A stretch of DNA of 64,000 nucleotides, taken from assembly GCF_004210375.1 (NCBI RefSeq), contig NC_134831.1:4092001-4156000 (forward strand), read 5' to 3'. Positions within the stretch are counted from its first letter, which is position 1; each line of letters begins with the position of its first letter. This document shows, piece by piece, positions 2,995 through 32,977 of the stretch. The position numbers and the translations under genes are program-made. The notes under the pieces were generated by a model that made no database searches, was not told the origin of the DNA, and worked only from the letters and a program-made list of their open reading frames with translations. This stretch comes from Tachypleus tridentatus. Taxonomy: Eukaryota > Arthropoda > Merostomata > Xiphosura > Limulidae.

Positions 2995-3164
2995 TTTCTT
3001 ATTTTCAAATTAAAAAGTTTCATTTTCAATGACATTTTTCATACTACTTATTCAATTATTTAGAATCTGCTTGGACAAGATATCTGATAATTGTGAAATC
3101 TCTGCATATTTGACCGCTGTCTCCAAAGCATAAAGAAAATTAGTTCAAATATTTGAAGTCGTGG

Positions 3165-14053: not shown

Positions 14054-15282
14054 ATTAGCAAAATTATATAAATATTTCGGGGTTTTACACTTCTTACAAT
14101 TTGAAATCATTCAAGGGAAAAAAAGAGTAATTTAGATTTACTTCGATTTTTTTTTTTTTTTGGTGATTACGAGGTCGGTGAAATTGACCAATCTTGTATA
14201 AAGTTTTTGGTAGAGAAATTAACATAAAATCTATAAATTTTAGTGAAAAAGTTTTAAAATGTGTTTATGGTTTAGGGATTATGCCAATGGGATTTGATAT
14301 TTTTGAGATGAAGAAAAGTATTTTTAATCATAAAATAAAAATCACTTTGCACTTGGACTAGAAAAAAAAGGCTCATCATATTCACGGTCACGAACATATA
14401 TTTTTTTAGTTTATTTAAAAATACTTCACTGAGAGATATATTGTTTTTGTTCTATAACAGACTTCAAATGTTTAGTGAAAGTCTGCCAAGTTTTGTGAAT
14501 ATACATATAATATATCAAAAGTTAATAGTATTAGAACTACAATACGTACAAACTAAACTCTCTCTACAAGAAATTGGTCGAATTAACCATCAATAGACCT
14601 TCCTTTTTACTCAGTTCTTGTGCCATTTTTGTCCTTGCAGGGAGTTAAGTTGTCCCCTACCAATAAGGTCATTACATTCATTCAGCCCTTCTTTCTCAAT
14701 ACTTAGAAATGGTGTGGTGCTCAGATTAACATGTTCTTGTATGCGAACTGTTAATCACCTAGTGGTGGAAAAAGTATAAATTAAAGAATATTTACGACAT
14801 TTATATACATATACCACATTATAATTTTTCAAGTTAAGTATACATTATTCATATCTGATTAAACAAATGGTTAAAAAACAACTCTCAAAACCTGAGATTT
14901 TTTTATGATAATTAAAGTACCGTATGAATATATTTTAAGAAATATTGATTTAAACTGAGAAGGATATTCTCCAAAACAACACGTTTCACAGTGGCGCAGA
15001 AACAAATTGTGAGTAAAGTGAATGATCTAGATCCTACACCAACACCATTAGCTTGATCAAAAGTATCATAACGAATAAAACGTAGAACTCTTCGGTGGGA
15101 AAGTTTACAAGATTCTGAAACACGTGCTTAAGAAAGCTTATTTCATCTTTTTCATTTTGATACAGAAGTTCAGTACGTGAATTTGTGGTTCTCAACTAAC
15201 AGTACGTTGGTAAAAGGAAAACTTTGTATGAAAACTAGGACAACATACTCCATCATTAAACGTTCTCCAGTGGTAAGTCTGA
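14054..15282. other. AT-rich intergenic DNA, nothing identified
   Basis: No frame with recognisable motifs and no known repeat seen. A poly-T run lies at about 14148-14161. Confidence 0.5.
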
Positions 15283-15297
15283 TAGGTTGATTAATAT

Positions 15298-15467
15298 ATG
15301 TGTAAAAACGGCTGGTTTGGGCTGAGAAAATTTTTATGTAGAGGAACGAACAACGTTTCGACCCTCAAAACGTTGTTCGCTCTTCTACATAAAAATTTTC
15401 TCAACCCAAACTAGCCGTTTTTACATACATATTTTTCTCTTCAAGTGGGTTTTCTCGTCATCACTGG
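15298..15467 (+). mobile_element. Small palindromic retroelement, Penelope-like ends, complete with 15-bp duplication
   Basis: About 170 bp. Two arms of roughly 58 bp (15301-15358 and 15368-15426) pair almost perfectly around an eight-base loop; the right arm reads AACGTTGTTCGCTCTTCTAC and TCTCAACCCAAACTAGCCG. A single-copy tail follows: TTCAAGTGGGTTTTCTCGTC. The insertion is flanked by TAGGTTGATTAATAT at 15283-15297 and 15468-15482. The same sequence recurs at 21846-22030 and 32463-32561. The tail and the GTCGAAACGTTGTTC-type motif also occur at the end of the Penelope-like element at 17.2-20 kb, which suggests the parent family. Confidence 0.8.
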
Positions 15468-15482
15468 TAGGTTGATTAATAT

Positions 15483-16120
15483 TTTAAAAAACAGTAAAAT
15501 ATTTAAAAATAAAGTTAGCATCAAAATAATATAAATCTTCTTATGTGAGGAAATGATAATAAATTATTTTTTATTTTAAGTTATAGAGAAAAAAATTATA
15601 TTAAAATTATAAAAATAAGAATGACTGGCTTTATTTAAATAAACCTCACAATAATTAAAAAACAGGAAGTTGTGACATACCTGCTGCTATCTGGTGAGCC
15701 GATTTGACATTTTAACCTTTGTCGCTATTTACACAATAGCTTTACAATTTAAGTTATACAATCTGTATTACTTTAAAAGTTTCACATGAAAGCGTATAGC
15801 CGTGTACCACTTCTGAAAGCTTACTTGTCTTAAAAAAAAAATACATACAGTACCAACTGTACTAACAGTGCGCCTTTAAAACTGTTTCCAGTGAAATGGT
15901 TTTATGTTTACACAGAATCTACATTAACGGGGTAATGAGAAGAAAGTGTAGAATAAAACTGAAACTATCGTATAATTGTTATGCACAAGATATGTAGTCA
16001 TTCTTTATATTAACGTCCAACTTACGTGGAAAACTCAGTCTATGAAGGGAAGAAATTTGTTCTTTTTATTGCGGATATAGTATTTGTCGTTTCTTTGTAG
16101 TGCAGAAAATGTCATTATTG
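15483..16120. other. AT-rich intergenic DNA, nothing identified
   Basis: No recognisable gene or repeat. Confidence 0.5.
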
Positions 16121-16386
16121 GTTTGTTTTGTTTTGAATTTCACGCGAGACTACGCGAAGGCTATGTACACTAGCCCTCCGTAATTTAACGGTGTAAGACT
16201 AAAGGGAAGACAGCTAGTCATCATCACCCTCTTCAACTCTTGGGTGACTTTCGCCAACTAATAGTGGGATTGACTGTAAATTTATAACATCTCCACAGCT
16301 GAAAGGGCGAGTATGTTTGGTAGGAATGTGGATTTGAACCCGCAACCCTCATAATGCAAATCAAGCACTCTTAACACATGGCCATT
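16121..16386 (-). repeat. SINE family A copy, diverged
   Basis: Tail TTTTGAATTTCACGCGAGAC, body CCACAGCTGAAAGGGCGAG, head GTGGATTTGAACCCGCAACC to ACACATGGCCAT. A second, much older relic of a related SINE follows at about 16425-16620. Confidence 0.85.
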
Positions 16387-16424
16387 TCATTATGAATTGC
16401 GTGTTTCTGATATTTAAGCAAATC

Positions 16425-16620
16425 TATTAAATGAATATTTGTGCTAACCGTTCATAATTTTGAAATGATAAGCCAAAGGGAAAGCAGTTAGTCAACATAA
16501 CTCACCATCAGCTCTTATGCTAGTATTGTCTTACCGAATAGTAAAAATTTGACGATCACTACTATTACGCATCCATGTCTCCTTCGAAGTACAAAGAGAG
16601 TTTTTTTTTTTTATATAACG
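16425..16620 (-). repeat. Old SINE family A-like relic
   Basis: Recognisable only by order: GTGCTAACCGTTCATAATTT, AAAGGGAAAGCAGTTAGTCA and ACCGAATAGTAAAAATTTGA. Confidence 0.45.
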
Positions 16621-17212
16621 AGACGTGGGCGTTGAAGTTGCAGGTGCAACAAGTTAGACGTTGAGCCACACTCTTAATTAAACATATTTTTTCGTTTTAG
16701 CATATTATTATTATTAACAAACTGATATATATTAACTACCATCTAAGTTATTTTAACCAATAAAATCAGATGGTTTTATTTGTTCCTCCATACAAACCCG
16801 GAGCGATCTGCTGGTACTATCTTTATATTATTATCTATATTTCTATTTCACTGTAAACTTTGCAAAATTGTGTTGTTGGTTATGCATCTACTGTTTTAAA
16901 TAACTTGGTTGGTAGTTTTTGTTGTTGTTTAGGATTAACGTTTAGTACTAAGTTCTGGAGGACACAACAGTTGATGGTCTGTCAACTTCAAGGTTGTCGT
17001 TGAAGTTCCTTGTGGTTTAACTTGTTTGTTGAGGAGTGGTGTAGATAAACAAACTGATGGAAAAACCGTAAAATATGACTCAGCTCACAATCCAACAACG
17101 CAAGATTACGGGAAACCTGATGCCATTTTTCTTAACAACCCAACTTCCTTAAAAATGACTCATCTGATTATCAGATATTTATATGTGAAACAACTGAGTT
17201 ATAACCAGTTCT
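16621..17212. other. Intergenic DNA, nothing identified
   Basis: No supported feature. A 69-codon frame at 17026-17235 has no motif and runs into the Penelope-like element. Confidence 0.45.
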
Positions 17213-17216
17213 ATAT

Positions 17217-17475
17217 CTCAGAATGGCTGGTATGAGTATTAACACTTTTATTGATAAGCAGAGAACAACGTTTCGACTTTCCCAGGTTATCTTCAGGTGA
17301 ACAAAGGGAGTTTGCAGCTGATCGTTGCCGGATACATGTCTTTAGGGACGAGAGTATAAACGGGTACGGGACTGTAGGAAGCGTTACAGTTGGATGTTAG
17401 GCTATTAATTAGTATAGGTATAAGTATAAAGATGTTTCTTTACATTGCTTTAATTCTGGTTTTAGTTGCTGTATA
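17217..17475 (-). repeat. Left inverted arm of the Penelope-like locus, with hammerhead-like core
   Basis: Inverted copy of 19727-19980. Read on the minus strand it contains CTGAAGA (17296-17290), a short imperfect stem, then GTCGAAACGTTGTTC (GAAAC at 17274-17270). CTGANGA and GAAAC are the invariant parts of the hammerhead ribozyme, a motif known from Penelope-like elements. The stem II spacing is not ideal here, so activity is unproven. Confidence 0.6.
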
Positions 17476-18269
17476 ATGACATTTTTATAACACAAATTGA
17501 ATATAAAGCGATCACTTCAGCCTTACACACACCACTATACTAGTACAGATATGATCATACAGTTGCTGAATTCACATCTACAGAACACACTTAATTTTTT
17601 CAATCACGTTAACTCAATACACCCCAACATAAAGTTTACCTGTGAACAGGAAAAAAAACACTAACCATATAGCATTACTAGATTATACATTCCCTAGGAC
17701 TTAGTACATAAAACAAAACAAAAACTCAACATATTAAAAAACCAAATAAATACAGCCACAAAACTATGTTCACCCAATAAAATTAATGATGAAATCAACA
17801 AATTAAAACAACACTTCATCAACATCAACAAATTTCCTAAAAAAACCGTTGAAAAAATTATACGCACACACCTAGACCAACAACAAACAAACAATGATAA
17901 ATCCCAAGATACAACAAACTACAAAAACTTATACTGCTACATACCATATGTTCCCGACATCAGCGAAAAAATAACAAACATTTTGAAAAACTTATAACAC
18001 AACATTACATTCCAGTAAACACCAAATTTATTCAAAAACTAGGTACAAAACTAAAGTCCATACTATGTAAAATCTACACTGACAAACACAACACCAACAT
18101 TATTTATTAGATACAATGCAACAACTGCCACGACTTCTGTATTGGAGAAACAAGCAGAAAAATGGAAACTAGATTAAAAAAACACCTTTACACGTTTTTG
18201 AACACTGCAGATCAAATAAACACAACATAATTCTAGAAAATACCCAGATATTAAGTAGGGAAACAAATA

Positions 18270-19487
18270 CAGTGGTACCTCGGTTCTCGAACGACTCCTT
18301 TCTCGAACAATTTGGTTTTCGAACATATAGTTTGAGAAAAAAATGTCTCGGTTGTCGAACATAAACTCGGTTTCCGAACCAAGCTGTCGTGGCCCGAACC
18401 CCCGAAATAACCCGATTGATAATCCAAACGACCCTTCGACCATTTTCGGCCCACGCCAAGCTTGCCCAAAACATTTTACCCGCACCTGTCGCTCAGTCCA
18501 CACCCCCGCTAAAATCTGCTGTGAACGTTCTCGTTTTACTTTTTGTTGTTTTTCTAAATATTCTGATTAAATAAACCAGAAAGGGGTCAAAGAAGGATAA
18601 TGAAAGCAGCAAACCAAAAAGAAAAACTGTTAGAGCCACAATAGAGGTGAAAAAAATCTCGTAGCGAAGTATGAGAGTGGTGTTCCCGGGTCTGACCTTG
18701 CTACACAGTTTGATATGGTGAAGTCTACAGTCTGCACCATACTGAAAAATAAAGAGGTCATCAAAGGAGCTGATGTTGCAAAAGTAGTGACAGTGCTTAC
18801 GAAACAAAGATCACAAACAATTGAAGAGGTAGAAAAACTGTTTTTGATTTGGGTAAACAAAAAACAGTTAGCTGGTGATAGCATTTCTGAGACCATTATT
18901 TGTGAGAAAGCACAGCAGTTGCATGCTAACCTCCTGAAAAACACCCCTGGAACGAGTGCTGATACAAGTGATGCCATTAAGGCTAGTAAGGGTGGTTTGA
19001 AAAAATTAGGAAGAGAAGTGGCACACATAGTGTGATGAGACATGGGGAGGGTGCCAGGCAGAAACAAACCTCATTAGACAAGTTTTTAGTGAGAAATAAG
19101 TCCAGCGAGTCTCAAGCAGGTTGTAGCGGTGCAAAGAGACAGAAAAGAAAAAGAACCCCAGAAGGAGAGTTACCTGACGTTTTTGTGGAAGGTGACTCCC
19201 CTTCGAAACAATAATAACCCTCCTACTCTCCACGTTCCTCACCACCTTTCACTTACACCATCACCTCTCCTCAGCACAGGTAAAGTGCAGTTAAATTTTC
19301 ATTTATTGTTTTTTTATTGTGTTTACAGTTTTTGTGGTTGGCATGTAAGTATTATTATACAGGTATAAATAAGCAATATTTTTACTTAAAATGCTTCACA
19401 ATGCGTAATTTTTGGAGGTCTGTAACGGATTAATTTAATTTACAGTATTTCTTATGGGAAAAATTGATTCGGTTTTCGAACAGCCTT
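18270..19487 (+). mobile_element. Tigger/pogo DNA transposon relic, lacking its DDE core and 3' end
   Basis: The left end CAGTGGTACCTCGGTTCTCG is the typical Tigger/pogo terminus and follows a TA. The inside carries the CENP-B-type DNA-binding region (about 18606-19035: NLVAKYESGVPGSDLATQF, then MVKSTVCTILKNKEVI and VEKLFLIWVNKKQLAGDSIS). It then jumps to a C-terminal-like tail (19041-19214, KQTSLDKFLVRNKSSES). The catalytic DDE domain is missing. The right side has ATTGATTCGGTTTTCGAACA but stops about 40 bp short of the expected mirror terminus. Confidence 0.8.
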
Positions 19488-19990
19488 CATTAGTTTTATT
19501 GAGTGAGCATAGTTTTGTGGCTGTGTTTATTTTGTTTCTTAATATGTTGAGTTTTTTTTGTTTCATGTGCTGAGTCCCAGGAAAAAACAAGCAGGGAAAT
19601 GGAAACCAGATTCAAAAAATACCTTCACACATTTTTGAACACTGCAAATCAAACACAACATAATCTTAGAAAAAACCTAGATACTAAGAGGGGAAACAAA
19701 TATAAACAAATGCAAAATCAAAAAAGTCTTGCTTATACAACAACTAAAACCAAAATTAAACCAATATAAAGGAACACCTATACAAATCAATAACCTAACA
19801 TCCAACTGCAACTCCCCCTACAGTCCCGTACCCGTTTATACTCTCGTCCCCAAGACGTGTCCGACAACGGTCAGTTGCAAACTCTTTTATTAACCTGAAA
19901 ATGACTTAGGAAGGTCGAAACGTTGTTCTCTGCTTTTGAATAAAAGTGTTAATACCCATACCAGCCGTTCTGAGATACATTTCTATTTCA
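19488..19990 (+). mobile_element. Second Penelope-like piece with an inverted 5' segment
   Basis: 19488-19578 is an inverted copy of about 17695-17785. It is followed directly by 19579-19710, a direct copy of 18148-18270, and then by the right inverted arm with a hammerhead-like segment (CTGAAAA at 19895-19901, GTCGAAACG at 19914-19922). The GIY-YIG-adjacent segment is thus present twice in the locus, on either side of the Tigger relic. Confidence 0.65.
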
Positions 19991-20552
19991 TGTGGGTTTC
20001 TCGTCACCAAGAATTACAAAAACCAATTCTTCCCAAAAATATATACTTATATCTTTTACAAACCAAGAAGACACGGACGAAGGGAATGATTTATGAAGGA
20101 AGACAGATTAGATGTTATTATTGGAGAGTTGTATACCATACTTAGTGTTTCCACGTATTGTTGGATAGCAAACTGAAAAAAAAACCAAGAGAAAGAGTTT
20201 TTAAAAGTAAGTTTGCCAGTATCCTTTCTCAAGCTGAATGTTATATCAATGTTAATATGTTTAAGAAATATTTTAAAAATCACACAAATGAAATAAGTTT
20301 GTTTAAGAATTACATTTTTTTTTTGCTATAAAGCTTTCAACAGTCGTGGTTAACTGGTTTGAAATCTGACGAATGAATGAGGAGAAAAGAATTCTGAAAT
20401 GTTAAGTTCCAATAGAAACCGCTTTTTCATTTGTTTTTATTTTTGGTCTAATTTGATTAATAATTGGTTATCAATTGGTTGATTGAATGGATTCTAAGAC
20501 TCCCAACTTTAACTGAAAATAAATTCTATTTTTTATTATTCACTCGATACCT

Positions 20553-20802
20553 GGTCCGCCATGGCCAGGTGGGTTTAGACGATCGACTCGTAATCTGAGG
20601 GACGCGGGTTCGAATCCCCGTCGCACCAAAGATGCTCGCTCTTTCAGCCGTGGGGGCGTTATAAAGTGACGATCAATCCCACTATTCATTGGTAAAAGAG
20701 TAGCCCAACAGTTGGCGGTGGGTGGCGATGAGTAGCTGCCTTCCCTCTAGTCTTACTCTGCTAAATTAGGTACGGCTAGCGATATTAAAACAAACAAACA
20801 AT
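20553..20802 (+). repeat. SINE family A, with target-site duplication
   Basis: Head CCATGGCCAGGTGGGTTTAG, B box GGGTTCGAATCCCC, body as usual, tail shortened (GGCTAGCGATATTAAAACAA). Flanked by ACTCGATACCT at 20542-20552 and 20803-20813. Confidence 0.92.
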
Positions 20803-20813
20803 ACTCGATACCT

Positions 20814-21137
20814 TTTCGTGACATGTTTAGCATGAAGGTTCAAAGACATCGCAGTATTGAAAACAAACTCTTATAAATAATAAAATACGATAACAGTTAT
20901 TTATCGTATCGTCCCAACTGCCGCACGGACTTTCATTCGTGTTTCCTAATACTTTTCTCATCACGAACAGGTGTGGTATTTTTTCTTCTCTTATCATGAA
21001 CACACTTATTATTTATACTTCTGTCATAACGTGTACATGCGCTATTTTTACTTCTCTCATCATGGACAAACGTGTTATTTTCTCACAGACTTTATTATAA
21101 GTCGTGTAGACCCTCAATTTGAAAACGTAACATTATT
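20814..21137. other. Short intergenic stretch with a loosely repeated pattern
   Basis: About three loose copies of a TTCTC(T/A)TCATGAACA...TTATTTTTACTTCT motif around 20950-21090. Nothing else seen. Confidence 0.4.
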
Positions 21138-21147
21138 CACATGGTAA

Positions 21148-21428
21148 ATTTGTTTGTTTTTGCTTTGAATTTCACTCAAAGCTACACGAGAGCTATCTGC
21201 GCTAACCGTCCCTAATTTAGCAGTTTAAGACTAGAGGGAAGGCAGCTAGTTATCACCACCCTCCGCCAACTCTTGAGCTAATCTTTTACCAACGAATAGT
21301 GGGATTGAATGTCTCATTATAACGCCCCCACGGCTGAAAGGGCGAGCATGTTTGGTGAAACGGGGATTCAAACCTGCGACTCTCGGATTACAAGTCGAGT
21401 GCCTTAACCACCTGGCCATTCTGGGCCC
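21148..21428 (-). repeat. SINE family A, full length with target-site duplication
   Basis: Minus-strand copy from tail TTTGTTTGTTTTTGC to head CTGGCCATTCTGGGCCC. Flanked by CACATGGTAA at 21138-21147 and 21429-21438. Confidence 0.93.
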
Positions 21429-21696
21429 CACATGGTAAGAAAGAAAGCATTAGTTTCATAGTGTGCACAACCATGCATACAGAGATATATACCTATTTCC
21501 TGGTTTGAAGAAATAATTTTATAGAGAATAAATGGAAAAACGTTAATTTTACCCATGTCTTTTTTGAGAATACTACTTGTGATAACATCATGTGAACTGT
21601 TGACGAATTTTCACATTATTCTTAATCTGTTCTCTTCAAAATCAAATCAGAAAAAAGAACAAGCATTTCAGAACCACTTTTTGTCTCTCACAAATA

Positions 21697-21822
21697 GCCC
21701 CCCACTGGCTCAGCGGTATGTCTGCGGATTTACAAAGCTAAAAACCGGGTTTCGATACCCGTGGTGGGCAGAGCACAGATAGCCCCTTGTGTAGTTTTGT
21801 GCTTAATTCAAAACAACAACAA
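21697..21822 (+). repeat. SINE family C, with target-site duplication
   Basis: Best family C copy: CCCACTGGCTCAGCGGTATG (A box region), GGGTTTCGATACCCGTGG (B box), GAGCACAGATAGCCCCTTGTG and a TTTGTGCTTAATTC tail. Flanked by CTCTCACAAATA at 21685-21696 and CTCTCACTAATA at 21823-21834. Confidence 0.88.
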
Positions 21823-21845
21823 CTCTCACTAATAATTGTACGATA

Positions 21846-22030
21846 ATCAGTGATGTCGAGAAAACCCACTTGTAGAGAAATATATATCAAAACGGCTCGT
21901 TTGGGTTGAGAAAATATTTTACATAGAAGGTCGAACAACGTAAACCTGACGTTGACCGAAGAAGGTCGAAACGTTGTTCGCTCTTCTATTTAAAATATTT
22001 TCTCAACCCAAACGAGCCGTTTTTGCATAT
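21846..22030 (-). mobile_element. Small palindromic retroelement with hammerhead-like core and 14-bp duplication
   Basis: The longest of the three related insertions, tail on the left (CAGTGATGTCGAGAAAACCC). Inverted arms lie at about 21889-21940 and 21969-22025 and pair through GGTTTGAGAAAATATTTT-type sequence. The unpaired middle reads CTGACG (21946-21951), then TTGACCGAAGAAGGTC and GAAAC (21968-21972), a degenerate hammerhead-like arrangement. Flanked by ATAATTGTACGATA at 21832-21845 and 22031-22044, directly against the preceding SINE. Confidence 0.78.
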
Positions 22031-22263
22031 ATAATTGTACGATAGTTTACAAATGTAAACATTTTTAGTAAATTATGTTTATTTTACACAGCTGCAGGCA
22101 GATCAATAAATTTGCATATGAATTTATATATCTTCGTGAAATGTGTAAGTCTTCCAGGGGATTTAATAGCATGAAGTGTAGATTATAAGTTGTCATGTAC
22201 GTTTAATAAATCCACAGTTACATTGCTCAACCAGCTTGTGAAGTTACAAATAGTAGTTGCCTG

Positions 22264-23447
22264 CACTATATGGCCAAAAGTATGTGGACGCCCGATTATC
22301 ACAACCATATGTGTTTGTTGAACATTTCATTCCAAAACCATGATCAACAATAAGGAGTTGGTCCCTTCTTTGGTGCTATAACAGCCTCCACTCTTCTCGG
22401 AAAACTTTTCACTAGATTTTGAAACATGGCTGTGGGGATTCTCTCCTACTCAGCCACAAGAGCATTAGTAAGGTCAAACACTGGCGTTCCAATTCATCCC
22501 AAAGATGTTCGATGGGGTTGAGGTCAGAACTCTGAGCAAGCCAGTCAATTTCTTCCACACCAACCTCGGCAAACCATGTCTTTATGGACCTCGTTTTGTG
22601 CACGGGGCCATTGTCATACTGAAACAAAGAAGGGTCTTCCCCCAAACTGTTGCCACAAATTTTGAAGCACACAATTCTCTAGAATGTCATTGTATGTTGT
22701 AGCATTAAAATTTCCCTTCACCGGAACTAAAGATTCTAGCCCAAACCATGAAAAACAGTCTCATACTATTATTCCTCCTCCACAGGCAGGTAGCGTTCTA
22801 CTGGCATTCGCCAAACCCTGATTCGTCCGTCAAACTACCAGATAATGAAGCGTCATTCATCACTTCAGAGAACGCGTTTTCACTGCCCCAGAGTCCAATG
22901 GTGGTGTGTTTTACACCACTCCCGCCAACGCTTGGCATTGTGCATGGTGATCTTATGCTTGTGTGCGGCTGCTCGACCATGAAAACTCATTTTATGAAGC
23001 CCCCGACGAACAGTTCTTTTGCTGACGTTGCTTCCATAGGCAGTTTAAAACTCGGTAGTGAGTGTTGCAACTGTGGACAGACGTTTTTTACGCTCTTCAA
23101 CACTCGACAGTCCTGTTCTGTGAGTTTGTGCAGCCTACCGCTTCGTGGCTGAGCTGTTGTTGCTCTTAAGCATTTCCACATCACAATAACAGCTCTTACA
23201 ATTGACCGGAACAGCTCTAGCAGGGCAGAAATTTGAAGAACTGACTTGTTGGAAAAGTTGCATCCTATGACAGTGCCACGTTGAAAGTAACTGAACTCTT
23301 CAATACGATCCATTCTACTGCCAGTGTTTGCCTATGGAGATTGTTTGGCTATATGCTTGATTTTATTCACCTGTTAGCAATGGGTGTAGCTGAAATAGCC
23401 GAACCCACTAATTAAAGGAGTGTCCACATACTTTTGGCCATGTAGTG
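22264..23447 (-). mobile_element. Tc1-like DNA transposon relic with matching ends
   Basis: Terminal inverted repeats: left CACTATATGGCCAAAAGTAT, and right (read on the minus strand) CACTACATGGCCAAAAGTAT. Both continue GTGGAC. The transposase on the minus strand is degraded: an N-terminal HTH region (about 23313-22990: EFSYFQRGTVIGCNFSNKSV, ATTAQPRSGRLHKLTEQD) and a C-terminal catalytic segment (22672-22412: SLFQYDNGPVHKTRSIKTW, SSDLNPIEHLWDELERQ). These include the second Asp and the final Glu of the DDE triad. Frames change between the two parts. Confidence 0.88.
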
Positions 23448-23671
23448 TAGATAAAGTGGGTGTATCATACATAAATGTAATTTAAATTACAAGTTTACAA
23501 TTGACGTATCATACATTCACACGAATAAGTTTTATCTTACAGAAAAAGAAGACTGAATGATTAGTTATGTGATTCAAACCTAGATGGCACTAAAACCTTA
23601 AGCAAAAAAAGTAGGAATTACTACAGGTAATACCACTTGATTATTTGCGACAGAAGTAGAGCGCTCCACGT
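23448..23671. other. Short intergenic stretch
   Basis: Nothing recognised. Confidence 0.4.
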
Positions 23672-23957
23672 TAGGTTTGGTTTGGTTTGGTTTTGGAATT
23701 TCGCACAAAGCTATTCGAGGGCTATCTGTGCTAGCCGTCCCTAATTTAGCAGTGTAAGGCTAGAGGGAAGGCAGCTAGTCATCACCAACCACCGCCAACT
23801 CTTGGGCTACTTTTTTACCAACGAATAGTGGGATTGACCGTAACATTATAACGCCCCCACGGCTGGGAGGGCGAGCATGTTTAGCGCGACTCGGGCGCGA
23901 ACCCACGACCCTCAGATTACGAAGCGCACGCCTTAACGCGCTAGGCCATGCCGGGCC
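23672..23957 (-). repeat. SINE family A, full length
   Basis: Tail side GGTTTGGTTTGGTTTGG and GAATTTCGCACAAAGC, body well conserved, head CTAGGCCATGCCGGGCC. The flanking CGTTAG may be a short duplication. Confidence 0.88.
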
Positions 23958-25375
23958 TTACTTCCCGTTAGAGAATTGTAAGGATAAAAGGCTGTTACAC
24001 TACTAGTTACCATTGAAAAAGGAAGATTATAAGAAATATTACCTATGTGATTCTTTGGGTATGATTTAATTATTAAATTACTTATTCCATTAATTAAACA
24101 GTTATTAAAGAATGCGAGAAGTCATAAGTTTTAGCGTATTAAAAATTATTAAATTTTCATTTTATAAATCGTTTGTGTGGTGTGCTTATAAGTTTTAATT
24201 TGTTCTACAATTTTTAATTTTTTCAAATTGGTTTACTTCCTTAGTTATTTCAAACAATTTGTTTTTCTAGGTTTCAAATCTTGGAACTATGTGCTATAGT
24301 AAAAATGAGTTTACGATTTAAAATATGTAAGCTTAATAACAATCGTTCAAAATAAGACAGAACTGTATATCCTCCGATTCGCAGTCTGGTATGCTATCTA
24401 CTAAGCCTCGTACAGCCCAATAATAATGGTAAAATTGAAATAATGATTGACTAAATACGTAACAAAAACAGCATAAATGCTTACAGAAAGCTGACTGTAT
24501 TTTGGTAAAAGGTTTTAGTGCTAGTTTTAGCAGTTATAAAACTATTTGTGCAGTATTGATATCTCAAACTGAACGCGCCATGTAGATAAACGGCCAGGGA
24601 AAAGATCCTCAAAATTCAGGCACAGCCACCTCTAATTTAAAATTACCTATCATATAGAGAACACCAATCAATATCACCCATCGCCTCTTCTGCGGTTACT
24701 CTTAAACGGATGGCGGAATCGACTGTTATACTTATAACGACTTTGTAGCCAAAAGTACAGGAAGCGATCAGTAAGCAGCCCGTGTAGGAAGTTATTTAAG
24801 ATACTTTGAAAAGTGCTTGTAAAAGCTATTAAGGCGTCGTATGGATAACAAAGAAAAGTGTTTTAAGTTGTAAACTGTGGAGAAACATACAGAATTCAAA
24901 ACATTTTGCTACCGACTCATATTTTCACAATTACAAACAAATAATTTCTTTTTTTAAGTATTTTATTTGCAGTACAATATACAGTTTTTATTTAATTATA
25001 AGCGACTAATTATGACACAGTAGTAAATGTAACCAATAAAAGGCACGAAAAACTCGTCGTATTTCTGAAACTATAGAATCACCATTCTGCTTCCTCTGCA
25101 ATAACTTAGAAAAAACAAATCTTAAATGACCTGAACAGATCTCTTGGAAGAAGAGTTGGCACTCTAAATATACATGTGTGTATAGTAAATAAATAGCTTA
25201 AAAATACTAGCATTTTGTACATAATTATTCTTGGTACGCACTTCAAACCCATTTTTAACAGTCGGGTACAAATGATGCCACCTATCATATTTGACTTACT
25301 ATAAAAGAAATAAACGAATGATTCTTTCTGTGCTATACATTCGGAGCAGTTTACAACTTTATGCCTGTTATAAGT
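23958..25375. other. AT-rich intergenic DNA
   Basis: No gene seen. A weak minus-strand SINE-like order is visible at about 24595-24760 (TCACCCATCGCC, TTACTCTTAAACGGATGGCG, GGAATCGACTGTTATACTTA). A short tRNA-like half lies at about 24363-24412 on the minus strand. Both are too eroded for a firm call. Confidence 0.4.
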
Positions 25376-25770
25376 TAATTTACTTTTTTTCAATTTACCA
25401 TTTTATACTAGTTACAAGTGAACTGACTTTCCCGTTACCAGTTTAAACTAGTTCATGCTAGCTTACTTTCCTTTAATTTACTAGTTCATACCAGTTACAA
25501 GTTATTTTATCTTCCTGTAATTTACCAGTTTATATCAATTTCAAGTTAACTTACTTTCCTTTAATTTACCGGTTTCTATCAGTTATAAGTGAACTTACTT
25601 CATTTATCATTTTATATCGGTTACAAGTAAACATACTTTTCTTCAGTTTATTATTTTATATCAATTACAAGTTAACTTACTTTCCTTTAGTTTACCAGTT
25701 TATATCAATTACAAATTAAATTATTTTCCTTCACTTTATACCAGTTACAAGTTCACGTACTTTCCTTAAG
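25376..25770. repeat. Degenerate tandem repeat
   Basis: About eight to nine imperfect copies of a roughly 45-bp AT-rich unit with the pattern TTTACCAGTTTATA, CAGTTACAAGTTAACTTAC, TTTCCTT. Unit length and sequence drift. Confidence 0.75.
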
Positions 25771-26047
25771 ACTAACTCCCATGAAGGCCGCATCCGAAAT
25801 TCTGATTAATGGCAGAAAACAAACAGTCTTTGTTTATGTTTTGTATTCTAAGTTATTGTTCTAACGGCTATCAAGACTGCCAGAGATGGTTTCAAGAACA
25901 GTGAGTGTACATAAAATGATAACTTCAAAGGCGTTAAACTACTTTTGTTATCAGTGTGGAGAAACATCTACAAGTAAAGGGAAGGTGAAATGTTCTATGA
26001 AAATTCTCATGCTATTCAGTAGCTTATGGTAGAAAACCTACTACTAA

Positions 26048-26390
26048 TGGGTTTGTTTCTTTGTGGTTAAGCACAAAGCTACACAGTGGGTTATCTGTGT
26101 CACGGGGTTGGAGGCGAGTAAGATGAACGTTAAAGGGGTACGTCACACTTTGCTCTGTCTTCTTTTCTTATGAATGTTTTTTTCCCTCAATACCACACTT
26201 CAGACTATATTCCCATGGCTGTCCTTAATTTTGAACTGATAGACTAGAGAGAAGGTTACTAGTCAACTGCATACACAGCCAGTTCTTGGGCAAATAATAA
26301 AATTTGTCCGTCACCATTATAGTGCACCCATAGCTCAAAAGTATGGAGTGTATTTCTGAGACAGCACGAGTTGCGAACCATAAATTATTA
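26048..26390 (-). repeat. Eroded SINE relics (family C tail, then family A-like)
   Basis: 26048-26102 has a TTTGTGGTTAAGCACAAAGC tail. 26200-26390 keeps the family A order (TGGCTGTCCTTAATTTTGAA, CTAGAGAGAAGGTTACTAGT, CAGTTCTTGGGCAAAT) with heavy divergence. Confidence 0.5.
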
Positions 26391-26475
26391 GGTTTACGGT
26401 CCGAAGAAATTAAGTACTAGAATACTTCCGTGAATTATTGTAAATGGATGTGTTCTTAAACTGTAATTAGTCCTT

Positions 26476-28008
26476 TCAGTGAGAGATGTTGATGTTTATG
26501 TCTGATGAAACGGTGGAGAAGTTACACACGAACTCCCAGTTTCTCAGACGTGCCTGTACTGCTTGAACTAGTTGGTCCTTCCAACGATAAATCCTGCGGT
26601 CCACCACGGACGTCGTGTTGACACAGTCGTTTCCTCCGAACTCACAGATTCGGTAGTGATGTAGAAATCCAATGTCCGAGGGAATGTTGACCATGGCCCG
26701 ACCTGGGAGAAATTCCCACACGAAATGGTTACCCATTTCTACCACTCGTTCTGGAAGCATGATACACTTGGAGCGCTGCTTGTGAGGGTGAAACTTCAGT
26801 TTCCGAGTAGTTCTTTCTAGCGTTACCAATGGAAGAGGCAGACTTTTGGACTTAGGATCTTTAGGCCACGGAAGATAAAAGAAAGAGTTTTGGAAAGAAT
26901 AAGCACCTGTTTTCAGAGGTTTGTTTTTAGTAAGAACTTCCAGCATTTCGGTGAGGGATTCGCTCTTGTGAGGAACAATGAATTCATCAAAATCGATCAT
27001 TAAGACGAACCGAAACCTATACATCGTTCTGTACAAACAGTCGTTTAGAGCAGCGAACAAGCCCTCTGTCCGGATCTCCTTCTGGGACAACATGTCTAGT
27101 TTCCAAGGAAGAACAGTCATAATTCCGTTTGCCATATATTGTCGCATAACACACGCAACGTCACGACCGATTGTGTTATTATATAAAATATAATGTTCAG
27201 CGCCAAAAATCCTGTTTAATTCAATAAATTCGATAAAGTTCAACAGTTTGTTGTAACTGTAATGCATGGGCTTCACACAAACTGCTATTCCGTGAGAGGA
27301 AGTGGAGTTTCTTTTATTGTTATGTACAACCAGCCAGTTCGTAGTTTCAGCGTTTTCTGAACTAATTATGGACACCCTTTCTGGCAATGCGGAAAGACCA
27401 TTACTTAACGGACACAGCACAAAATAAGCACTGTACTTCAAGTTCCAGTTTTCTTGTATTAACTTGTTAAATGCATGAACAGTTTTGGGAGGATAACCAT
27501 CTGTAAACCAAAACTTACATATTACTTTATCCGCTGTTCGCGTTCGTGCGGCTGCGATTACTCGAACTAAACGAACTCTTCGAGTATCTAAATAGGCTGA
27601 GAAAACAAAGAATTTATCTTTCGTACCCCTAACCGGTTGCCAGTGGTCGACAAGTTTACTCCCAGGTAATTCTTCATCCTCTGCCATAAAATCTTGTTGA
27701 GAATCATAGTATAGATTCACAACGACGTCCAAATCTTCCTGTACAGTATCAGTTATGACTCGTGCAAGCTCTCGTGCCAGGTGAGAGGGCAGCACTATCT
27801 CTTTATTCATGTCTTTCTTCCACCTCAGCCTTTCAAACAAGCTAAATTCCGTGGAGGAGTTCTCTTCAACGAAAAATATTTCGGTAAAGAGAATACTAAG
27901 AAAAAAAAGCATAAACATCAAAACAAAGTAAAATGACTTGTTTCTCCTATCGTTTATACGACTGATACCCGCCATTTTGTCTAAATGAATCCTTCTCCGA
28001 ACAGGCAT
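26476..28008 (-). CDS. Glycosyltransferase family 92 protein (GT92-B), single exon
   Basis: 510 residues, intronless. Type II Golgi membrane glycosyltransferase like GT92-A. Seen: basic N-terminus (MPVRRRIHLDK), membrane anchor at residues 25-47, Asn-Ser/Thr glycosylation sites, FVFSAYLD, ENWNLKYSAYF, HYSYNKLLNFIEFIELN, KEIRTEGLFAALNDCLYR, a DxD-type metal site in VLMIDFDEFIVP (D339, D341) and LHHYRICEFGG near the C-terminus. ATG at 28008 is the likely start: an in-frame TGA lies two codons upstream; Met12 is an alternative. The reading frame is intact. The 5' side abuts a 50-bp tandem repeat. Where GT92-A has its intron this gene reads straight through (FLPGRAMVNIPSD). Substrate not known. 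Confidence 0.92.
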   Translation of the reverse strand: MPVRRRIHLDKMAGISRINDRRNKSFYFVLMFMLFFLSILFTEIFFVEENSSTEFSLFERLRWKKDMNKEIVLPSHLARELARVITDTVQEDLDVVVNLYYDSQQDFMAEDEELPGSKLVDHWQPVRGTKDKFFVFSAYLDTRRVRLVRVIAAARTRTADKVICKFWFTDGYPPKTVHAFNKLIQENWNLKYSAYFVLCPLSNGLSALPERVSIISSENAETTNWLVVHNNKRNSTSSHGIAVCVKPMHYSYNKLLNFIEFIELNRIFGAEHYILYNNTIGRDVACVMRQYMANGIMTVLPWKLDMLSQKEIRTEGLFAALNDCLYRTMYRFRFVLMIDFDEFIVPHKSESLTEMLEVLTKNKPLKTGAYSFQNSFFYLPWPKDPKSKSLPLPLVTLERTTRKLKFHPHKQRSKCIMLPERVVEMGNHFVWEFLPGRAMVNIPSDIGFLHHYRICEFGGNDCVNTTSVVDRRIYRWKDQLVQAVQARLRNWEFVCNFSTVSSDININISH

Positions 28009-28012
28009 ATTT

Positions 28013-28362
28013 CAAAATGTTGGTAACAAACAAGGTTTCAAAGTCTCCACGTCACTTCTTGTCAAAATGTTGGTAACAAACAAGGCTTCAAAGTCTCCAC
28101 TACGCTTCTTGTCAAAGTGTAGTTAACAAACCAGGTTTCATAGTCTCCACGCCACTTCTTGTCAAAGTGTTGGAAACAAACAAGGCTTCAAAGTCTCCAC
28201 TACACTTCTTGTCAAAGTGTTGGTAACAAACAAGGCTTCATAGTCTCCACGCCACTTCTTGTCAAAGTGTTGGTAACAAACAAGGCTTCATAGTCTCCAC
28301 TACACTTCTTGTCAAGTGTGGTAACAAACAAGGCTTCAAAGTCTCCACTACACTTCTTGTGT
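28013..28362. repeat. 50-bp tandem repeat upstream of GT92-B
   Basis: Seven copies of a 50-bp unit with TGGTAACAAACAAGGCTTCA, AAGTCTCCAC and CACTTCTTGTCAAAGTG. It begins four bases upstream of the GT92-B start codon, so it forms the 5'UTR and/or proximal promoter. Copies alternate between CCACGCCAC and CCACTACAC variants; the last copy is two bases shorter. Confidence 0.92.
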
Positions 28363-29041
28363 GTACAGAAAATAAATCGTCAGGAGGTGCTTCTAATGCA
28401 AAACTACATCTCAAAATCTTTGTTTCTTTTACTGTCTCTAAACCACTTTCTTCTCAGTCAGATTGTAGAACCTGAAAAGGACACATATATGTTTATACGA
28501 ACAAAATTATTTGATTTCAAAACCAATGTATTTCAGACAACAATAACAGGTCTAATTATAACGAAGTAACTTTAAAAATAAAGGATTTCTGTGTTTCGGA
28601 GCTGGCTAACCGGATTCGAATCTGTGCGACATCACGAAATATTCCTCTCACTTGACATCTTGAATGCGTTACAAAAGTGACAGTTAATTCCTCAAGGTTG
28701 TTGGTAGCGTGTTGCTGATTAACTGTTTTGCTTCTGGTCAACAATTCGAAACAATAAAAAAGGTTTTAATCAATAAAACATGACTATCGTTAAGAAAAGA
28801 GTAATAAGCTACAAAAACTTTTAACACCTTAGCAGTGGTAGGTACAATGAATAAATTGGAATGGCTGTTGACACAAAATGGAAACCGAATGAACTTACTG
28901 GGAGCAGTAAGATACTAGTGAGCTGGCGAGATATTTCTGGGTTTTCTTATTAGAAAAGTTCGATTTTGTACACAAGCGTTACATTGTAATAAGTAGAATA
29001 TGTTGTTGTCGTTCCCTTTTTCGAAAGTTTTATGTAAGTAT
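28363..29041. other. Intergenic DNA, nothing identified
   Basis: Upstream flank of GT92-B. Two short unrelated frames (28309-28569, 28556-28744) have no motif. Confidence 0.45.
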
Positions 29042-29150
29042 TGCTCCCAGTGGTTCAGTGGTAAATCTCGAGGCTTATAATGCTAAAAATTGGAATTCGA
29101 TACTCAATGTGGGAAGATAACCTCTTGTGAAGATTTGTGCTTAACAAGAA
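29042..29150 (+). repeat. SINE family C copy
   Basis: CTCCCAGTGGTTCAGTGGTA head, GGAATTCGATACTCAATGTG B-box region and TTGTGAAGATTTGTGCTTAA tail. Confidence 0.7.
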
Positions 29151-29339
29151 ACGAACAGCAGGCACATAATGTTTTTTCAGATGGAAGGCTTGTAACTCCG
29201 TGTTGTTAGCAAGCCACTTAAACACCAGAAAATTATAGTTTAAAACTGTTGTTAACAGTGTATTGCACATGCTCAAGAACAGAGAACCAGCACACGCTAT
29301 CATGAAGCATGCTCCTTATCAACAGATAGCTTGTTTTGT

Positions 29340-29458
29340 TGAGTGTGTGTTTTCTTTTAGCAAAGCCACAAAGGCTATCTGCTCAGCCCACCGAGGGGAA
29401 TCGAACCCCTGATTTTAGCGTTGTAAATCCGGAGACATGCCGCTGTACTAGCGGGGGA
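29340..29458 (-). repeat. SINE family B copy
   Basis: AGCAAAGCCACAAAGGCTAT tail side, CAGCCCACCGAGGGGAATCG, AACCCCTGATTTTAGCG and head CCGCTGTACTAGCGGGG. Well conserved. Confidence 0.85.
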
Positions 29459-29459
29459 C

Positions 29460-29640
29460 TTGTTTTGTTGAATTTTGCATAAACCTACACAAGGCCTATC
29501 TGCGTTAGCTGTCCCTAATGTTTCAGTGATAGAACAGATGGAGGGCAGCTAGTCAACATCACCCACCACTAACTCCTTGGCTATTACTGTAGAATTGAGT
29601 AGTGGAATTTGACCTTTACCCTTTTAGTGTATCCATAGAA
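29460..29640 (-). repeat. Eroded SINE family A 3' half
   Basis: Abuts the family B copy. Tail TGAATTTTGCATAAACCTAC, then GCTGTCCCTAATGTTTCAGT, GAGGGCAGCTAGTCAAC and GAGTAGTGGAATTTGACC; no head. Confidence 0.65.
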
Positions 29641-29949
29641 AATGTTGATTGAGTTGACATGTATAAAATAAGAATACAGTATACAGAGCTCGGGCAACTT
29701 ATTAACACTTTTTAACTCAAGTTTTAAGATGAATTACTGATAAATATAAACATAACCCTTACTGTGAACCACGTGTTGATCCCATCTGCCTGATTGGAAA
29801 ACAATGTTAATGTTTCACATGATTTATTATTATCCAACATGTGCTGAACTCTTCATAACCAATAGTAAAGAGCAAATAAACGCTCTAAAGTGATTTGATA
29901 TGTTAAACCTTATTAGCATCTTAAGTGGCATACGGAATAAACGTCTATT

Positions 29950-30272
29950 TCAGGAACCACGTGACGACACATGGGCTACATGGCTAGGTAAGGAACTCTG
30001 TGACGATACATGGGTTAAATGGCTAGGTCACGAACTCTGTGACGACACATTAGCTAAACGGTCAAGTCAGAAACCCCATGACGACACACGGTATAAATGG
30101 ACAGGTCAATAATCCTGGGGCTACACACGGGCTAAATGGACTGATCATGAACCCCGTGATGACACACTGGCTAACCGGGCAGATCAGGAACCCTGTGGTG
30201 ACACACGAGTTAAACGGCCAGGTCAGGAACCCAGTGACGACATACAGGTTAAATATACAGGTTATGAACCCC
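29950..30272. repeat. 39-bp minisatellite
   Basis: About eight copies of a 39-bp unit: GTGACGACACATGGGCTA, AATGGCTAGGTCA, GGAACCC(C/T). Because 39 is divisible by three, frames stay open (13-residue repeats beginning DDT at 29900-30112) without other evidence of coding. Confidence 0.9.
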
Positions 30273-30476
30273 TCAGTTAAGGCATAGTTATATTTAATTT
30301 AGAATTTTGACATGAAGGAATTATTCAGCAGCATCCAGCTACTCTTAACATAATAATGGTTTTACATTTTAACGCCCCCACCCACGCACAGCTGATAGTT
30401 GAAGTGTGTTCAGTCATCTACTACACTGCAAGACAAAATCTAGGCCCTCTCTTAATGTGGGTAAATATATAAACAC

Positions 30477-31110
30477 ACTGGCTGACAACTTTATTAGAAA
30501 CTATACTTAATAATGGGCTGGGCTACTTTTTGCCATAATAACAGCCATAGAATGATGTGGTGTATAATCCATAAGATGTTAGAGGGCGTTCTGAGGAGTT
30601 TTCCTCCATTCAGTCATTACTAGTGTATCATCCTTACCGCATTCAAAGCATGTTTTCTGGATAGTAACGAAATCTAGCGACTCATTCAATGACCCCCTAC
30701 TGCCAGAATCCATTACTTGTTGCAATGTTCTTCATGAGGTACAACTGAAGATAAATGTGGATCGCCATGTACTGATTCTTTCTGATGACAGTTGGACTTT
30801 ATCATCCTGTCATTACGTGTTTGCGGCCATAATTTGCTCTCGCAGCAGACACATTAATCTCTTTTTTTACACTGATGATAAATTGGAATGACCAATGGCT
30901 TGGAGCAGTCTGTCAATGAAACTTCCTTGAACAACGACACATGTTAGACAGACACCCAACATCCCGTTCCTCTTTTGAGCGCTGGATATTTTTACTTTTC
31001 CACATATCTGTTATTACTGTAAACGCAAGTGTACTAGTCATGCACAGGGATCACCTAACACACCTAAGCCTAAAATGGTATATAGGTCCTATTAATGTGG
31101 TCAGCAAGTG
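30477..31110 (-). mobile_element. Tc1-like DNA transposon relic, shortened
   Basis: Ends are imperfect inverted repeats: left CACTGGCTGACAACTTTATT, right (minus strand) CACTTGCTGACCACATTAAT. Both continue into AGAAAC/AGGACC-type sequence, and TA follows the right end. The minus strand near the left end keeps a Tc1 transposase C-terminus-like string (MTEWRKTPQNAL, then HLMDYTPHHSMAVIMAKSSP). The remaining coding region is missing or unrecognisable. Confidence 0.65.
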
Positions 31111-31126
31111 TAGAGGTATCGGTCGT

Positions 31127-31330
31127 AGAATTTTCGCGCAAGGCTACACAGGGACTATTTGCGCATAACTGTTATTAATTTTAAACTTATGAAGTGCAAG
31201 TAAGGTATTTAATTAACATCACTTGGACAACTTTGTGTGATTGACCGTCTCTTTTTTTAACGACCCTCGACCCCTAAAGTGCAGAAAGCAGTTTTGTGGC
31301 AGAGAAAGGCGAACCACGAATCCACGGACT
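31127..31330 (-). repeat. Eroded SINE family A copy
   Basis: Tail AATTTTCGCGCAAGGCTACA, then TGTGATTGACCGTCTC and ACGACCCTCGACCCC; the rest is heavily changed. Confidence 0.55.
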
Positions 31331-31566
31331 TACAGACTGTCCAGTTATGCTAGCCTCTAGATCAGTCTCATTCATCTCTCTATCTCCAGAGATAGATACA
31401 AGTCATCAGTCAGTATACTCGCGTTATCATGTAAGTCATAAATTGGGTTTGAAAAACACATCTTTGGAACAAGACCTACCTGAGGTCTAAAATTTCTCAT
31501 TTTATTCTGATAAAAATTAAACTGTACAACAATCTTTAACAATAGTGTTCCTTCAATTATTTTTAG

Positions 31567-31826
31567 GGCCAGGCATGGCCAGGTGGTTAGGGTCCTCAAC
31601 TCGTAATCTTAGGGTTGCATGTTCGAATTCCTCGCCCTTTCAGCTCTAGGGCGTTATAATGTATGGTCAATCCCACTATTAATTAGTAAAAGAGTAGCCC
31701 AAGAATCGGCGGTGGGTGGTAATGACTAGCTGCCTTCCCTCAAGCCTTACACTGCTAAATTAGGGACGGCTAGAGCAGATAGCCTTTGTGTAGCTTTGTG
31801 CGAAATTAAAAAAAACAAACAAACAA
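31567..31826 (+). repeat. SINE family A copy
   Basis: Head GGCATGGCCAGGTGGTTAGG, B box GTTCGAATTCCTCG (several bases deleted after it), body and tail GTGTAGCTTTGTGCGAAATT plus CAAACAAAC. Confidence 0.88.
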
Positions 31827-32447
31827 TTTTTTTTGGAGAGGGAGTGATTATGTATTGTACTGGAGCTATTAATATTTTCCTATTTTCAATTATCATTTCT
31901 AATGCTTGCTGACCAAAGAAGAAACAAAATTTGTTTTATGCTGTTACAAAATATGTATGTAGTTAATAAAGACATAATTCAGAGAGGTTACATCACCTTC
32001 CTGATGAGAAAGTTAGTCTACATCTACTGAGCACACACAACTTAAAACCAGCTTTAACAACAAACATCTCATCAGAATGTTCAACATTGTCTGTATACAA
32101 AGTCCAAAAATTATTTTTTTGTTGGATGTAAGGAGCTATAGGGAATGTTAAAGGCGCATTTTTTTGAGTAGGCTCAGCCCCAGCAAGCCCCCTTCACCGA
32201 CCCCAATCCCTGTATAATATATATACCCGAGAAGAAACTTTATTAAATATGAACATAAAGTTTCAAGTACTTCGACGACAAGTATAATGCGGTAAAAGAA
32301 TCATGTAAATAGATAATTAGTTTTGCGATGGCCAGAAAGATAAATTGATTACTATTATATGAGTGCATGCAGCCCTCGAACACCTATTTTTAGTATTATA
32401 AGCCTTCAAACTAATCATTAAGCCGTCGTGGGTGGGAAGAGCTAACA
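31827..32447. other. AT-rich intergenic DNA, nothing identified
   Basis: No supported gene or repeat. Confidence 0.5.
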
Positions 32448-32462
32448 TAAAGGAAACATTTC

Positions 32463-32561
32463 TATAAATGTAAAAACAACTGGTTTGGGTTGAGAAAATT
32501 TTCTCAGCCGTTTATACATATATATTTTTCTCTACAAGTGGGTTTTCTCGTCATTACTGAT
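32463..32561 (+). mobile_element. Small palindromic retroelement, shortest copy, 15-bp duplication
   Basis: About 99 bp. TGTAAAAACAACTGGTTTGG and GTTGAGAAAATTTTCTCA form a shortened fold-back with the left half. The tail CTACAAGTGGGTTTTCTCG follows as in the copies at 15298 and 21846. Flanked by perfect TAAAGGAAACATTTC at 32448-32462 and 32562-32576. The inner, hammerhead-like part is absent in this copy. Confidence 0.8.
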
Positions 32562-32711
32562 TAAAGGAAACATTTCGTAGTCGAAAATTTAAACTTGTAA
32601 ATAAGTGACATTTTTCGTCCAATAAAATTAGGTATTTTCAAGCACTAAACATTAACCACCTGTATCTTATTACTGTGTCAGTCAATAGAACTACAGTGAT
32701 GGTCTGAAAAA

Positions 32712-32846
32712 ACTAACCTCTCACTGGTAGAACAACGTTAAGTTTGATGAACTTACAACACTAATATTCGAGGTTCGATTCCCCGCTATGGACACAGCCG
32801 ATAGTCCAATATAGGTGGCTACACTCTAAATTCAAACAAACAAACA
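32712..32846 (+). repeat. Eroded tRNA-headed SINE (family B/C)
   Basis: CTCACTGGTAGAACAACG, CGAGGTTCGATTCCCCGC (well-kept B box), GGACACAGCCGATAGTCC and a CAAACAAAC tail. Confidence 0.6.
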
Positions 32847-32977
32847 GATGAGCCAAACATTATATTATTATTTCAAGATCACCCTTTAACCTTTAGTTTT
32901 GTATGTGTGACGTCTCCACATTCAAATAAACGTATTGAAATATATGTCGGGGGGCCGAATCTTCACCAAATCTACAG

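Follow-up and report, generated by a model that had tools for sequence, protein, structure and literature searches.

Three small insertions in the 64,000-nt stretch of Tachypleus tridentatus DNA analysed here (the window) raise the question of how a short palindrome with a tail at one end only comes to sit between long direct repeats. All three were found, at 15298-15467 (E1), 21846-22030 (E2) and 32463-32561 (E3), and share a common plan of inverted arms, a one-end tail and direct repeats of 14-15 bp. The shared one-sided tail noticed in the first-pass annotation is present in 3/3 insertions, and its reading of the repeats as target duplications outside the element holds; they are different in each copy. 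One outer end is the tail end of the RNA of a Penelope-like element (PLE), designated start site 1, and the other lies about 30-40 nt further in, at start site 2. The features of the three insertions are as follows.

15284..15297, no strand: E1 left target duplication, AGGTTGATTAATAT, with possible extension to 15279
15298..15363, minus strand: E1 inverted arm lacking the tail; its outer end falls on start site 2, and the inner end is approximate
15365..15438, plus strand: E1 direct arm; inner end approximate
15439..15466, plus strand: E1 tail; outer end at start site 1
15469..15482, no strand: E1 right target duplication
21832..21845, no strand: E2 target duplication, ATAATTGTACGATA; second copy at 22031-22044, match 14/14
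21846..22030, minus strand: E2 whole insertion, reversed; tail-bearing end 21846, tail-less end 22030
21848..21875, minus strand: E2 tail
21880-21941 and 21971-22032: E2 arms; the second extends 2 nt into the duplication
32448..32462, no strand: E3 target duplication, TAAAGGAAACATTTC; second copy at 32562-32576, match 15/15
32463..32561, plus strand: E3 whole insertion, with short arms; shortest of the window
32532..32559, plus strand: E3 tail

The direct repeats of E1 (15279-15297 and 15464-15482) measure 19 nt with one mismatch, the final 14 nt being perfect, and overlap the tail end in part. Inverted arms span 69 nt at 90% in E1 and 62 nt at 90% in E2, and E1 has a folding z-score of -15.7 relative to 200 shuffles; only 12 nt of arm were detected in E3, so that the near-perfect hairpin ascribed to all three insertions applies to E1 and E2 alone. 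Similarly, the one sequence said to be common to them proved to be a common RNA 3' end with differing junctions and arm lengths. E1, E2 and E3 are not duplicates of a single hairpin but appear to be independent Penelope insertions of very small size; single copies may have shrunk later on. An Rfam search of window positions 15000-33000 (E ≤ 5) gave nine matches, every one under its family cut-off. Five such sub-cut-off models suggested a miRNA precursor reading of the E1 and E2 hairpins (best mir-973, 37.1 bits against a cut-off of 63); this was rejected and taken as shape likeness only.

The 28-nt tail occurs at 646 exact places in the T. tridentatus assembly, and its backwards control at 0. 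We sampled 70 of the 646 places in coordinate order, or 65 once duplicates were dropped; this tail sample was chosen by exact tail and misses insertions without one. Loci with a target-duplication score of 12 or more are called anchored and numbered 24/65, against 0/65 in the control. Twenty-one of them consist of a tail-less inverted arm, a junction and a direct arm with tail, and three are plain 5' truncations (60-143 bp, with duplications). Anchored insertions measure 60-1566 bp (median 182.5), 22/24 being at most 350 bp; the overall span begins at about 46 bp with L087, judged by eye and without confirmed duplication. As to the AT-rich targets preferred by PLEs, A+T content is 71% in the duplications and 67% in the flanks (n = 24). 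Twenty of the 65 tail loci were left unclassified by eye. An E1-guided search, which favours E1-like size, gave 40 copies of like size and shape. Duplication scores of at least 9 were reached by 30/42 hairpin copies, compared with 1.7% of 1722 swapped flank pairs; no repeat scoring at least 9 was found in 12/42. Because the control tail count is 0 and the swapped-flank rate 1.7%, the pattern of tail and duplication is not due to chance. Many palindromes are flanked by the two copies of their own target duplication, and their arms are oppositely oriented copies of a common RNA 3' end. A genome search as envisaged in the first-pass annotation did bring up many copies with the shared tail and duplications of 12-18 bp (22/24 anchored, the other two being longer and imperfect), with variable lengths and junctions. 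The share of arms that bear a tail is estimated at 37% (26-62%) or 50% (34-83%). By a rougher estimate there are 4.2 arms to each tail (1.6-18.7), against the 2 expected under strict pairing, so that some insertions may have no tail on either side. A decayed tail is present on each arm of L054 and perhaps of L019, in which the inverted side aligns weakly to the tail.

Some longer copies contain reverse-transcriptase coding sequence in either arm: in the direction of the tail (L076, L078, L091), in the opposite, inverted part (L046, L055, L057, L067, L095) or in both parts (L081). The L046 reading frame matches RVT_1 (E 2.1e-08), its best relatives being two T. tridentatus proteins with 88% and 82% identity, and a sequence search of the PDB found two reverse transcriptases and one unrelated enzyme, all as weak matches. 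A GETSRKMETR-type motif, a possible sign of a C-terminal GIY-YIG endonuclease, was seen by eye in L081 and P0001; GIY-YIG had no Pfam match. A minimal hammerhead-like motif has 40 distinct matches in 363,872 bases, compared with 1 for the reversed-motif control; 35 matches in the loci are of one conserved type, GTGAAC-CTGACGA-stem-GAAAC-GTTGTTCGC, and one window match is related. Rfam gave no match on seven loci at E ≤ 1, and RNA 3' ends folded for five individual copies gave no trusted shared structure. An inverted end copy, a one-end tail and a target duplication of variable length are all PLE features, and on this sequence evidence we assign the palindromes to a horseshoe-crab PLE family. 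Both the Penelope link and the origin by reverse transcription postulated beforehand are supported. Inverted arms and a target duplication would also be expected of a foldback or MITE-type DNA transposon, but the one-sided tail, the variable duplication length, the truncation series and the reverse-transcriptase coding relatives contradict this reading, to which we give virtually no credence. Neither like ends nor a fixed duplication length was found.

A second Penelope-like family is represented in the window by the following parts.

17205..17476, minus strand: inverted 3'-end copy without tail; stretches of it pair with 19733-19977
17500..18269, plus strand: decayed coding remnant, by eye from the reading frame
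19733..20009, plus strand: direct 3' end with related tail, ATGTGGGTTTCTCGTCACC

No target duplication is claimed for this larger locus, where 31% of 500 random pairs score at least as high as the best candidate.

There were 38 distinct junctions among 42 E1-like hairpins and 26 among the 26 clean hairpins of the tail sample, the latter mapped on one reference copy with five with larger gaps omitted. As nearly all junctions are different, the palindromes appear to arise at each insertion. Among the 42, one junction is common to three copies and two are common to two each; all of these recurrent junctions have 3-4 nt of microhomology, one spans both subfamilies, and they may reflect independent recurrence. 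Microhomology of 3 nt or more is present at 10/42 junctions, against 6.8% expected (P = 0.0004). The first-pass annotation had proposed a hairpin-shaped, non-coding family, which would have its own master copies, and the recurrent junctions and the 40 copies of like size and shape would suit it. The search behind those copies is biased to E1-like size, however, the junction is new in nearly every copy, and sizes grade up to 1566 bp into longer members, some of them coding. As a general account this reading is contradicted and hardly credible; a minority lineage could be of this kind.

The start of the tail-less arm falls inside one 12-nt RNA stretch in 37/42 hairpins, and in the 30 copies with a duplication this arm begins directly or a few nt after it. 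The further-reaching arm is the tail-less one in 28 hairpins and the tailed one in 14 (n = 42); the corresponding numbers in the tail sample are 20 and 6, an excess inflated by short left arms escaping the blast step. These counts bear on self-priming (snap-back), in which the first cDNA would fold onto itself and serve as its own template. Such a process yields palindromes with one-source arms and junction microhomology and, with an antisense template, is the explanation of inverted ends suggested in PMC3846280. It needs, however, a tail-less arm that extends no further than the tailed one, which is violated in 28/42 and 20/26 copies, and the copy should continue through the tail, whereas the second arm has none. 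We see no simple self-priming scheme by which a tail-less arm could outreach a partner that has the tail. Simple self-priming is therefore contradicted for most copies and very improbable overall, although it could apply to the minority with a longer tailed arm.

Divergence between arms is 10.4% within copies and 13.5% under random pairing, with 0/10,000 permutations as low (n = 41), and in 38/41 copies the tail-less arm and the tail carry the same subfamily base (shuffled mean 21.8, maximum 33 in 10,000). These comparisons suggest that both arms of a copy share a source. The sharing is incomplete: in only 7/41 copies does an arm find its nearest right arm in its own partner, and 15 rare bases are common to both arms, compared with 179 in one arm. 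Later conversion between arms could add to their similarity. A template jump, in which sense PLE RNA is copied from the tail before a switch to antisense PLE RNA with its 5' end at site 2, would account for the outer ends, the variable junctions and either arm being longer; Arkhipova et al. (2013, PMC3846280) propose an antisense template and point to a TATA sequence in the repeat that might act both ways. It requires an antisense RNA with that very 5' end and both RNAs to be of the same subfamily in most copies, while one added template RNA sufficed in vitro for extension of both target strands (PMC11167929). We regard a template jump as unlikely.

Large two-armed PLE insertions might instead have lost the palindrome centre by later deletion, in line with the microhomology excess at the junctions. 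Palindromes are prone to central deletion. Nearly all insertions must then have shrunk, though, given the 22/24 anchored ones of at most 350 bp, and the three plain truncations suggest that synthesis often halts this early; shrinkage as the general cause is quite improbable.

The best explanation, and probably the correct one, is double-ended target-primed reverse transcription, with one cDNA per broken end and joining mid-way. The enzyme would cut both strands in a staggered manner, leaving a free 3' end on either side of the break. Each of these ends would prime a separate cDNA on sense PLE RNA, with synthesis starting at site 1 for one and at site 2 for the other. Both cDNAs would halt early at variable points, and their ends would then be joined, often by short microhomology. 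Because both would copy the same RNA end, the product would be palindromic at any length, and early arrest on both sides would give hairpins of 50-350 bp. More tentatively, a Penelope particle may use two reverse transcriptases that work in parallel on one RNA end, each primed from its own side of the cut. One would begin at the end of the tail, and the other, which would usually get further, about 30-40 nt in front of it, with the cDNAs joined end to end; the palindromes would then be the normal product of the class and no side reaction. A purified PLE protein has been shown to cut both strands and extend them, with reverse transcription from two adjacent internal sites bounding a 'tail' (Frangieh et al. 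2024, PMC11167929). That work reports no start-site difference between strands, which does not account for the one-of-each start pattern.

The PLE class and its inverted ends are already known; new are the tiny products and the junction evidence. We found no earlier report of tiny Penelope palindromes in searches of an open-access library, and nothing on such palindromes in publications on horseshoe crabs and Penelope as judged by titles and abstract starts. PLE insertion is poorly understood, the steps after first-strand synthesis awaiting validation (PMC11167929), and the short insertions act as a record of the mechanism. With some dozens of duplication-bounded insertions read and about 650 exact tails genome-wide, rival schemes become separable by counts, namely of the start of each end, the longer arm and the mode of central joining. 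The counts argue for synthesis at both broken ends and speak against simple self-priming. They also carry a warning for annotation, in that a small palindrome taken for a MITE or a hairpin gene in such a genome can be a Penelope insertion.

Twin priming of LINE-1, which produces 5' inversions, is a related process, in that the second target strand primes on element RNA and the inverted part lies between duplications. There the inverted and direct parts adjoin on the RNA without overlap, whereas in most copies here the two arms overlap on a common RNA end, giving a palindrome. Animal retrozymes are likewise small and non-coding and occur in genomes also holding Penelope-like elements with minimal hammerheads (PMC7229834); they differ in their tandem arrangement, with repeats of 150-450 bp and canonical hammerheads, and no such tandem units were seen among the copies read by eye. 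The PLEs of Adineta vaga (PMC3846280) resemble those described here in an inverted pseudo-LTR end copy (37 bp shorter in Pen2a) and an optional 31-bp tail on one pseudo-LTR. Several inserts there have duplications of 8-10 bp, structure is variable, and solo pseudo-LTRs are mentioned, without duplications; that account rests mainly on coding copies, whereas most anchored insertions of the horseshoe crab measure 50-350 bp and have duplications, and their junctions were compared across copies. Further parallels come from Poseidon of Anolis (PAc), with two internal start sites bounding a tail and both target strands cut and extended (PMC11167929). By our own reckoning, the hammerhead-like cut lies about 92 nt before site 1 here, compared with 85-92 nt from the published PAc numbers (PMC11167929). 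The PAc products were obtained in vitro without joined insertions (PMC11167929).

The first-pass annotation described three insertions in the window, E1 (15298–15467), E2 (21846–22030, reversed) and E3 (32463–32561), as palindromic copies of one sequence with a one-sided tail and flanking direct repeats of 14–15 bp. This description was borne out, with the qualification that E3 has short arms and that the junctions, where the arms meet, differ among all three. The surrounding sequence contains the following features:

1654–2703, minus strand: Tc1/mariner-type transposase in two reading frames (DDE_3, HTH_Tnp_Tc3_2)
3144–4553, plus strand: glycosyltransferase family 92 reading frame, 469 aa
4615–5034, minus strand: open frame composed of tandem repeats (NYSQDKVTALTYTNYSLDKVKRLTFR)
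21357–21421 and 32721–32793: tRNA-like short repeats (SINE-like; Rfam tRNA, below cut-off)
~21700–21830: tRNA-like short repeat (SINE-like), recognised by eye
26476–28011, minus strand: glycosyltransferase family 92 reading frame, 511 aa

A search of the 2.17-Gb assembly with E1 gave 3023 first-look candidates, of which 40 were scored; these are 156–183 bp long, in a set biased to E1-like size. Together with the two other window insertions, and leaving out L024 (the other strand of L002), they constitute a sample of 42 copies, with E1 itself included as L001. In 37 of the 42, the start of the tail-less inverted arm falls inside one 12-nt segment of the RNA; in the remaining five the alignment continues beyond the arm, into flanking sequence or, for L019, as a weak match to sequence resembling the tail. 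The tail lies at the end of the direct arm. Target duplications scored at least 9 in 30 of 42 copies versus 1.7% of swapped pairs. The 42 copies have 38 distinct junctions, and the repeated ones (one junction found three times and two found twice) all have 3–4 nt of microhomology. One extra base is present at the junction in twelve of the 42 copies. As the junction is new nearly every time, the palindrome was formed at insertion and not inherited.

The 28-nt tail occurs at 646 exact places genome-wide (backwards control, 0) and the exact arm sequence 604 times; among the 100 arm matches listed, five opposite-strand pairs lie 98–168 bp apart, all pointing outward. A second sample comprised the first 70 of 100 listed tail places, in coordinate order on two chromosomes, with 1500 (30 loci), 4000 (20) or 500 (20) bases of upstream sequence, and was reduced to 65 loci by removal of five near-duplicates of list neighbours. 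Anchoring required a duplication score of at least 12, which 0/65 control comparisons (up to 1500 bases) reached (4/65 at 10 or more). Twenty-four loci were anchored, 21 two-armed and three plain truncations (L051, L056, L079), with insertions of 60–1566 bp (median 182.5; 22 of the 24 no longer than 350 bp). A looser rule anchored 33, including 30 two-armed, with L075 doubtful because of a simple repeat. By eye, 42 of the 65 have an inverted segment, whose outer end was not reached in some (e.g. L046, L095, L106), three are plain and 20 unclassified. Individual short forms include L087, a 46-bp copy without confirmed duplication, and L066, a 73-bp insertion with ~34 nt in the middle that could be assigned to neither arm. 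In L069 and L094 the arms are separated by extra stretches of 99 and 56 nt with no match in the reference copy, which may be captured sequence or represent an older version of the element.

The tail-less arm extends deeper into the RNA than the tailed one in 28/42 E1-guided and 20/26 tail-sample copies (pooled with one shared locus removed, 47/67, two-sided P = 0.0013), although both samples are subject to selection bias and the opposite holds for L100 and L110 at least, both short-armed. Self-priming of a fold-back cDNA should not yield such an excess. The outer ends lie near two RNA positions 30–40 nt apart, one per end. In vitro work on a Penelope-like enzyme found extension of both target strands and two adjacent internal start sites that bound the tail (Frangieh et al., PMC11167929). 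We infer that double-ended priming would unite the new junctions, the longer tail-less arms, the two outer-end positions and this in vitro behaviour: each side of the break would prime its own cDNA on the element RNA, starting at the tail end (site 1) or ~30–40 nt further in (site 2). The excess of longer tail-less arms would fit a pair of enzymes following each other along one RNA, the site-2 enzyme leading. Arms within a copy share source features (distances, subfamily bases) on average and only partly, which suggests that a single RNA, or two RNAs of similar origin, templated both cDNAs. In only 7 of 41 copies is an arm closest to its own partner, a result to be expected if much of the divergence postdates insertion.

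Doubled tails are confined to one or two (L054, perhaps L019) of ~80 two-armed copies. Under independent choice of site at the two ends, so few would mean that nearly all arms are tail-less. Instead an estimated 37–50% of arms are tailed (wide ranges), near the half that one of each predicts. By a cruder measure there are 4.2 arms to each tail (range 1.6–18.7), and some insertions may lack the tail at both ends.

Some long copies contain RVT_1 reverse-transcriptase coding sequence with 82–88% identity to predicted T. tridentatus proteins. By tblastn with two coding pieces, it runs with the tail in some loci, against it in others and in both directions in L081; the tail thus marks one of two ends and not the 'real' copy. 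The window's larger Penelope locus, with parts assigned within 17205–20009, represents another family built on the same plan, in which a target duplication was looked for and not confirmed. It harbours a DNA-transposon insert (18270–19490) with a Tc5-type DNA-binding transposase fragment (18634–19035; E 7.5e-4, just under the Pfam cut-off), and ~120 bp of Penelope sequence is duplicated on either side (18148–18269, 19585–19702).

In the literature searched, we found neither abundant tiny palindromic products with duplications nor a description of junction diversity in such palindromes, and no precedent for product abundance and junction diversity as a test of insertion mechanism. The plan of inverted end copy, one-sided tail and duplication is already known for Penelope-like elements (PMC3846280). 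A conserved hammerhead-like core, which Rfam did not recognise, is located ~92 nt ahead of the end of the tail, with the cut site positioned by eye; this distance is similar to the 85–92 nt implied by the published lizard element.
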